Source: Cytophagaceae bacterium (GTDB lineage Bacteria > Bacteroidota > Bacteroidia > Cytophagales > Flexibacteraceae). Taken from it: a DNA stretch of 64,000 bases. This document shows, in pieces, positions 56,471 through 57,242 of this stretch. The notes under the pieces were generated by a model, which was not told the origin of the DNA, searched no databases, and saw only the letters and a program-made list of their open reading frames with translations. The position numbers and the translations under genes were made by a program. Every line of letters starts with the position of its first letter. The stretch's first letter is position 1. The stretch is from assembly GCA_947458545.1 (NCBI GenBank), contig CANGYH010000005.1, forward strand, positions 1 to 64,000. Reading direction: 5' to 3'.

Positions 56471-56500
56471 TGTGCAAGGGCTTTGCCCTTGTCACGTGCT
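56471..56500 (+). repeat. Palindrome unit A, copy 1
   Basis: A 30-base unit: TGTGCAAGGGCTTTGCCC followed by TTGTCACGTGCT. It holds the hairpin CAAGGGC-ttt-GCCCTTG (56475-56491) and a CACGTG palindrome. Confidence 0.8.
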
Positions 56501-56502
56501 AA

Positions 56503-56527
56503 GGCGACGGCTAAAGCCGAACGCTTT
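56503..56527 (+). repeat. Palindrome unit B, copy 1
   Basis: A 25-base unit containing the perfect palindrome CGGCTAAAGCCG-like core (CGGCT-aa-AGCCG at 56509-56520), two bases after unit A copy 1. Confidence 0.75.
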
Positions 56528-56566
56528 CAAGCCTTCGGCGTCCTATGGGATGTATGGGATGCTGTT

Positions 56567-56584
56567 CGAGGGCTCCAGCCCTCG
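56567..56584. repeat. 18-base hairpin C1 (CGAGGGCT-cc-AGCCCTCG)
   Basis: Perfect 8-bp stem with 2-base loop and the shared core GGGCT-NN-AGCCC. Confidence 0.8.
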
Positions 56585-56596
56585 CAACCCTCACTG

Positions 56597-56614
56597 GCAG
56601 GGCTCCAGCCCTGC
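56597..56614. repeat. 18-base hairpin C2 (GCAGGGCT-cc-AGCCCTGC)
   Basis: Perfect 8-bp stem; the outer pairs differ from C1 on both strands (C-G, G-C swapped) so pairing is maintained. Confidence 0.8.
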
Positions 56615-56841
56615 ATACACCCCTACCGCAAGCACGGCGCAACGGCACAAAGGCAGCCCCGGCCGTAGGCTACGCGATACTTTACCCGTGCGCAACCTGT
56701 CGCAAGTCTTTAGCGACCTGATCAGGGAAGCGATGACTTGTGACGCCTACTGCAGCACAGTCTTCAGACTGGAGCAACACACGACAAATCCCCCGACATT
56801 CCCCGACAAAATCCCCTCGTAAAGGATTGATAAACAGACGA

Positions 56842-56866
56842 AAAGCGTTCGGCTTTAGCCGTCGCC
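56842..56866 (-). repeat. Palindrome unit B, inverted copy 2
   Basis: The exact reverse complement of 56503-56527, all 25 bases, 315 bases away. Confidence 0.85.
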
Positions 56867-56936
56867 AAAAGGGCAGATACTTTCCAGTAGCCCCTGGCTT
56901 ATGGTCATTTCTTAAGTAGCCTAACGGCGTTTTGCT

Positions 56937-56982
56937 CCCCCTCTCCCCGAAAGGGGGAGAGGGGGTTGGGGGGTGAGGGGGC
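56937..56982. repeat. C/G-rich hairpin followed by a G-rich tail
   Basis: CCCCCTCTCCCC (56937-56948) pairs with GGGGAGAGGGGG (56954-56965) across a gaaag loop, then TTGGGGGGTGAGGGGG. A very similar CCCTCTCCC/GGGAGAGGG unit with a GTTGGGGGGTGAGG tail occurs in many unrelated bacterial genomes as an interspersed repeat. Confidence 0.75.
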
Positions 56983-57050
56983 CTCGTCCCCAAACATAAC
57001 GTTAGGCCATTTGTGAAACGACCATTAACCTCGGGTAACCACGCGGGCCT

Positions 57051-57068
57051 CGCGGGCTACAGCCCGCG
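57051..57068. repeat. 18-base hairpin C3 (CGCGGGCT-ac-AGCCCGCG)
   Basis: Same design, 8-bp stem, a different loop and a different third pair (C-G) from C1. Confidence 0.8.
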
Positions 57069-57126
57069 CTACAATCTTCACCCTGCGCCATCCGCATCCT
57101 GCCTGGTCTGCCACCCTGGCCTACAC

Positions 57127-57143
57127 GCGAGGCGGAGCCTCGC
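57127..57143. repeat. 17-base hairpin (GCGAGGC-gga-GCCTCGC)
   Basis: Perfect 7-bp stem with a 3-base loop, immediately before unit A copy 2. Confidence 0.8.
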
Positions 57144-57146
57144 CAG

Positions 57147-57176
57147 AGCACGTGACAATGGCAAAGCCATTGCACA
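57147..57176 (-). repeat. Palindrome unit A, inverted copy 2
   Basis: Read on the minus strand this is the 30-base unit A with 28 of 30 bases identical. The two differences are on opposite sides of the stem (CAATGGC / GCCATTG instead of CAAGGGC / GCCCTTG), so pairing is kept. Confidence 0.8.
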
Positions 57177-57186
57177 GTTGAAGGGG

Positions 57187-57204
57187 GGGCAAAGCCCTTG
57201 CACA
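57187..57204 (-). repeat. Palindrome unit A, partial copy 3
   Basis: Read on the minus strand: TGTGCAAGGGCTTTGCCC, identical to the first 18 bases of copy 1; the right half is replaced by a run of C. It is adjacent to copy 2 in the same orientation. Confidence 0.7.
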
Positions 57205-57221
57205 AAATTCAGCGACGGAAG

Positions 57222-57242
57222 TGTTCGGCTTTAACCGCCGGC
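57222..57242 (-). repeat. Palindrome unit B, diverged copy 3
   Basis: TGTTCGGCTTTAACCGCCGG-like sequence, matching 17 of 21 bases of copy 2 in the same orientation, close to unit A copies 2 and 3. Confidence 0.6.

Follow-up and report, generated by a model that had tools for sequence, protein, structure and literature searches.

The window analysed here, a 64,000-nucleotide stretch of the genome of a Cytophagaceae bacterium, carries a 706-bp unit between two divergent genes, one for a 3-hydroxyacyl-CoA dehydrogenase/enoyl-CoA hydratase and the other of the AIM24 family. The unit is bounded by two facing copies of a 30-base hairpin that we designate A. The left copy (56471-56500) and the reverse complement of the right copy (57147-57176) are equal at 28 of 30 bases, and their sole mismatches, at positions 8 (G/T) and 18 (C/A), face each other in the stem; a half copy at 57187-57204 corresponds exactly to TGTGCAAGGGCTTTGCCC (18 of 18 bases). 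Direct alignment thus bore out what a first-pass annotation of this DNA had noticed, namely the degree of identity, the placement of both differences on one stem pair and the presence of a third, partial copy. The 30-base unit that it had delineated is a real inverted repeat but too small, as the inverted arms are 48 nt long in the window (83% alike), and two other units have arms of 218 and 283 nt.

The interior of the unit reads, in terms of hairpin modules, A-F-G-H-I-F'-E'-D'-C'-B'-A', with an element N lodged in E' (Table 1). Modules B to E have been lost on the left, so that no family but A and F is present here with both its arms. No transposase gene is carried inside the unit. Beyond A, both at 57184-57204 and upstream of many other copies, there are tandem half copies of A whose last bases are a run of C (GGGCTTTGCCCCCC); among the 54 copies considered below, a run of C at 7-11 nt beyond A is frequent.

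Table 1. Modules of the unit in the window (positions without prefix) and the Y1 transposase genes of the genome (L-numbers) with the hairpin families assigned to them.
Feature	Position	Strand	Remark
Hairpin A	56471-56500	+	Left outer end; G-C state of pair 8/18
Hairpin F	56503-56524	+	Left copy; modules B-E absent between A and F
Hairpin G	56565-56584	+	Family flanks the RAYT gene at C3:191433-191984
Hairpin H	56596-56614	+	Partner of G
Hairpin resembling family I	56697-56747	+	Extra loop sequence; by eye; family of the RAYT gene at C1:1533281-1533808
Hairpin F'	56845-56866	-	Exact inverted repeat of left F
Hairpin E'	56887-57035	-	Interrupted by N; pieces 56887-56901 and 57025-57035
Element N	56902-57024		123 bp; inverted ends TGGTCATTTC/GAAACGACCA; TTA on both sides
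Hairpin D'	57051-57074	-	GTAG-tagged type; no cognate gene assigned
Hairpin C'	57101-57125	-	GTAG-tagged; family adjoins the RAYT gene at C9:18365-18634
Hairpin B'	57127-57143	-	A-B doublet, inner member
Hairpin A'	57147-57176	-	Right outer end; T-A state of pair 8/18
Half copy a	57184-57204	-	Tandem, outside A'; holds the third copy noted earlier
Solitary F copy	57221-57239	-	Degenerate; outside the unit
L015	C6:80142-80723		Family A-B; assigned by eye
L016			Family G-H; assigned by eye
L009 (IS200-type)	C1:1638835-1639167		Family E-F; assigned by eye
L011			Family C; assigned by eye
L012			Family I; assigned by eye
L014			Family J-j; assigned by eye
L013			Family K-k; assigned by eye
L010			Family M-m; assigned by eye

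Further copies of A were sought and found throughout the 3.23-Mb genome. A pattern with positions 8 and 18 left free and up to 3 mismatches allowed occurs at 52 places (29 forward, 23 reverse), while the reversed pattern, used as a control, has no match in the whole genome, and the pattern itself has none among 58 relatives. For the detailed comparisons we used 54 copies (up to 6 mismatches, loop also free) from sampled stretches that were partly chosen around pattern matches. When a covariance model made from the 26 distinct rows among them was run against the whole genome, it reported 57 places at E up to 1 (weakest E 0.12), three more than these 54 copies. The 384 occurrences of the 9-mer GGCTTTGCC were rejected as a copy counter, as most of the 65 places inspected by eye in 464 kb are coding-like.

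All 54 copies have C immediately outside TGTG, and an unpaired T stands in mid-stem at position 22 in 50 of them. In 52 of the 54, judged by eye, roughly 3 nt separate the 30-mer from the start of hairpin B; the exceptions are the copy at C1:1288456 and the left arm in the window, where F follows directly. When two copies are neighbours less than 1.1 kb apart, they mostly converge (14 of 16 pairs, the others being one divergent and one tandem pair), and the 14 units bounded in this way measure 266-957 bp. The copies also lie mainly between genes: by a crude ORF caller, 41 of 54 are outside ORFs of at least 120 aa, although such ORFs take up 90% of the sequence in the long stretches sampled. 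The remaining 13 lie inside called ORFs, some of which span a composite (e.g., C3:120809-121640).

One of the convergent A pairs encloses a gene for a REP-associated tyrosine transposase (RAYT), a type of gene that the first-pass annotation had thought worth looking for elsewhere in this genome. The 194-aa open frame L015 lies between A-B and B'-A', scores 105.7 bits against the NCBIfam model REP_Tyr_transpos (cut-off 80), matches TnpArep (4er8) weakly across the HUH and Tyr regions (E 1.9e-4) and carries the motifs NHLH, WQ and YIHDNP. Two more copies of A have remnants of this RAYT next to them: that at C1:1642569 (88% over residues 170-194) and that at C6:79937 (69% over residues 162-193). 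In total, eight Y1 genes score above the Pfam cut-off, without stops in the matched frames; seven of the encoded proteins also exceed the REP_Tyr_transpos cut-off, and the eighth scores as an IS200 transposase. The latter (L009) has E-F doublets on both sides, like the RAYT genes, and its E hairpin carries GTAG. Hairpin families were assigned to the eight genes by eye; of the module patterns, those for H and m cross-match.

Flanking by inverted hairpin doublets of their own is the rule for these genes. Seven of the eight reach flanking-repeat scores of 42-64.5, whereas 227 control ORFs have a median of 10 and top five values of 15, 15, 15, 15.5 and 59; the value of 59 equals the score of L015 itself, which lies in a sampled stretch. 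The exception is the RAYT gene L011, which has no flanking inverted repeat (score 9.5) and C copies on its 5' side only. In the relatives, the flanking repeats of 23 of 26 loci exceed the best of 30 shuffles, some of them narrowly, and those of L076, L093 and L101 do not; the motif filter of this test left out L088, L095 and L097 from the 29 relative loci and, from the eight genes scored here against control ORFs, L009 and L011. None of the 58 relatives contains a RAYT more than 50% identical to L015 over a near-full-length match, and a scan of genome contigs for this RAYT returned four distant loci (30-46% identity), a list in which near records may be omitted.

Most of what is said about the spread of REPs and REPINs is still inference. 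For the elements described here, we consider it probable that A is the outer hairpin of the A-B recognition end of the HUH/Y1 RAYT L015, and that two facing ends bound a movable unit. The many copies of A, their convergent pairing, the RAYT gene between A-B doublets and the Y1 genes with flanking repeats of their own all point to this, as do the joint absence of A and of a close RAYT from the 58 relatives, the nesting of families, the shared element N, the end of homology near A and the lack of a constant duplication (see below). Against it count the RAYT gene L011 without a flanking repeat, the homology that in places runs up to 140 bp past A and the 13 copies inside ORFs. The RAYT would recognise A-B as a single-stranded hairpin and would move whatever two convergent A-B ends enclose; in the window, hairpins of REP type from other Y1 transposases, together with the palindromic element N, came to occupy the interior. 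Binding, cleavage and transposition are the presumed steps of this model. The E. coli enzyme TnpAREP cleaves at CT near its hairpin, according to PMC8266576, and the CT at the border of A is thus a candidate cleavage site.

Positions 8 and 18 of A form a stem pair. Among the 54 copies it is T-A in 33, G-C in 13, A-T in one and unpaired in seven; hence, it is of Watson-Crick type in 47, compared with 28 expected from random re-pairing of the same letters. Kinship among the copies inflates such counts. When only the 26 distinct 30-mers are counted, 19 pair at this position compared with 10.9 expected (permutation value 0.00085), and the covariation score of the structure is equalled by 8 of 500 shuffles. 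The covariation is therefore real, but it is confined to this one pair. Among the other nine stem pairs, two are invariant, three show a change on one side and four differ solely by unpaired cells; none covaries. For the distinct rows, all 500 shuffles have at least as many pairs changed on both sides (one), and 431 of the 500 have at least as many pair types. The covariation claimed at the outset thus holds for pair 8/18, which seven of the 54 copies nevertheless break, and for no other. Apart from the loop and this pair, the stem is nearly fixed, most likely as befits a site that is read by both sequence and structure.

The further claim of the first-pass annotation, that selection rather than mere copying keeps the pair, remained unproven, for two copied states together with palindrome correction could give the same pattern. 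According to this alternative, two lineages of A, one T-A and the other G-C, were copied and corrected against their own palindrome without selection on the hairpin. We consider it less likely than not. In its favour are the single covarying pair and the five of 14 units whose two arms differ in state, T-A against G-C. It sits less well with the occurrence of T-A with six loop sequences, of G-C with three and of A-T once, and with the excess of pairing among the distinct 30-mers. Recognition of single-stranded A by the RAYT would be a reason for the pair to be kept.

Parts of the window unit recur widely. The 706-bp sequence has 166 matches in the genome; the 88 that we grouped, with short and unlisted ones left out, fall into 40 loci, so that parts recur at no fewer than 40, of which 22 have at least 250 matched bases and some others little more than one module. 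In module scans, three of the 14 A-bounded units (the one with the RAYT gene and those at C1:18555 and C8:85513) fall outside the order A B C D E F [G H I d] F' E' D' C' B' A', which the remaining 11 follow, albeit with losses. Families A-B, C, D and E-F form concentric shells, and G-H, I and d stand unpaired in the core. Comparing families A-F with both arms resolved (B regardless of strand), we counted 91 nested arrangements over the 14 units and none that cross or lie side by side, a count that describes the units and is no test, since they are partly copies of one another. Homology between the window unit and ten other units stops no farther than 25 nt (left) and 28 nt (right) from A, while in some other composites it continues beyond A through neighbouring REP modules. 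No constant target duplication was found at the A ends of the 14 units, where the longest direct match is 1-5 nt.

Element N occupies the same site, in E', in the composite at C2:194797-195624, which is unlinked to that in the window, and the site is uninterrupted in the two aligned composites at C2:50104-50845 and C1:1537535-1538320. A third copy of N (C6:121840-121961) lies within hairpin D', without an exact duplication. One insertion of N common to two unlinked composites is most simply explained if the composite was copied after that insertion. We infer that the composites spread by transposition rather than by recombination, with the RAYT as the probable mover.

How the shells came about is a separate matter. 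Y1 transposases might insert preferentially in the loop or centre of the palindromes of other REP families and thereby build up concentric shells, which the outermost RAYT would carry along as cargo. A-B, C and E-F, representing at least three transposases, together with the orphan D would then be the shells, and G-H and the I-like hairpin the core. We offer this only tentatively. Equally doubtful in our estimation is the competing idea that the symmetry stems from one inverted duplication of an A-B-C-D-E-F array, or from repeated gene conversion between arms, instead of insertion of element into element. One event is simpler than several, and the similarity between the two arms of one unit (84-92% in five A-bounded units) is about the same as that between arms of different units (roughly 72-95% among the matches listed). 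Yet seven of the eight Y1 genes already carry their family as an inverted pair, N in E' looks like a plain insertion, and the interior at C1:18555-18896 is asymmetric. An E-F...F'-E' shell without A-D, recognised by eye at about C1:134905-135320, also speaks against the duplication, although the short composite-like stretch retained on the right side of this shell would suit it.

The remaining alternative, that the hairpin acts as RNA (a terminator, mRNA stabiliser or sRNA) and that selection on the RNA keeps pair 8/18, is very improbable: pairing is indeed kept in most copies and the window unit folds far more stably than 20 shuffles (z -11, DNA parameters), but palindromes of any kind would fold stably, no Rfam family scores above its gathering score (the single match lies far below), the unit sits between divergent genes, and the 38 copies with called genes on both sides (10 divergent, 10 convergent, 18 co-directional) show no 3'-end bias. 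The RNA role considered by the first-pass annotation thus found no support, and we do not favour a function of A as a terminator or 3' end.

We also inspected 400 kb from four relatives, with many stretches picked near RAYT genes. No inverted pairs with arms of at least 60 nt occur in three of them (G030, G056 and G038; 240 kb); the fourth, G045 (160 kb), has 31, which by eye are one-family arrays. The same filter returns six pairs from 400 kb of the genome studied here, five of them with A and none in the window; it misses the window unit because of its short left arm and is thus insensitive. With this filter and sample, composites as a general habit of RAYT-rich relatives found no support. 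Three stretches of G045 (L143, L145 and L149), a relative with 25 RAYT matches, contain dense inverted REP-like arrays, seemingly of one family. The composite DNA has no match among the 58 relatives apart from the central C-rich/G-rich hairpin of N, which is present in G012, G021, G038 and G052. Within the present assembly, three contig ends lie in composites or at most 150 bp from them (C3:225468-225712, C5:202495-202841, C9:92037-92484), which suggests that the repeats broke the assembly, as repeats like these may do elsewhere. Families nested in one another, in a genome with eight Y1 genes, give an order of age and point to hairpin loops as a candidate target rule; if loop targeting proves true, single-strand transposons would find landing sites in hairpins that are extruded as single strands.

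The first-pass annotation knew of no named element with such a layout. Hairpin A is, however, a REP/REPIN-type repeat as portrayed in PMC3116915 and PMC2817692: it is present in many, mainly extragenic copies, forms inverted pairs and flanks a RAYT gene in inverted orientation. With REPINs and BIMEs these units share inverted short palindromes, a flanked cognate RAYT gene, an extragenic location and compensatory changes, which PMC3116915 reports as common in REPIN hairpins and for which PMC2817692 puts forward selection for complementary mutations. They differ from the REPINs and BIMEs of these accounts in that each end combines two different hairpins into a doublet and in that 266-957 bp with other REP families are enclosed, where a REPIN has a short spacer. 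According to PMC8266576, IS608 has an unpaired base in its stem and the REPs of E. coli have a bulge; the unpaired T at position 22 resembles both. Modules C, D and E carry GTAG (by eye). A itself does not belong to the GTAG- or CGTC-tagged class of REPs: no GT[AG]G or CGTC stands at the hairpin foot, and CACGTGA on the tag side of A sets it apart from that type.

Bacterial MITEs resemble the A-bounded units as non-coding DNA with inverted ends and many copies, but the units have no constant target duplication at the A ends, and these ends are Y1-family hairpins; a MITE of DDE elements was rejected, as the direct matches have no constant length. TIRtrons and TIRYTs also have a transposase gene between inverted repeats, some with two stem-loops, and REP dimers inserted inside other single palindromes are described in PMC3733652; in that description one target palindrome surrounds the REP dimer, whereas units like that of the window have several shells. 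The system is a REP-RAYT system, and its gene resembles subclass 2.6 of TnpA-Y1 from Bacteroidetes as defined in the consulted extracts of PMC6006769: a RAYT-type gene, atypical flanking hairpins without GT[AG]G and genomic copies are common to both, and two of three motifs match exactly (NHLH and WQ, with YIHDNP in place of YIH[QN]NP). Nested multi-family composites are absent from those extracts, and concentric ones were not found in the open-licence literature as covered by titles, the beginnings of abstracts and parts of key papers. Neither there nor, with the insensitive filter described above, in the 400 kb of relatives was such an arrangement met; hence, while REP-RAYT systems and compensatory changes in their hairpins are already known, the concentric multi-family composite looks new.
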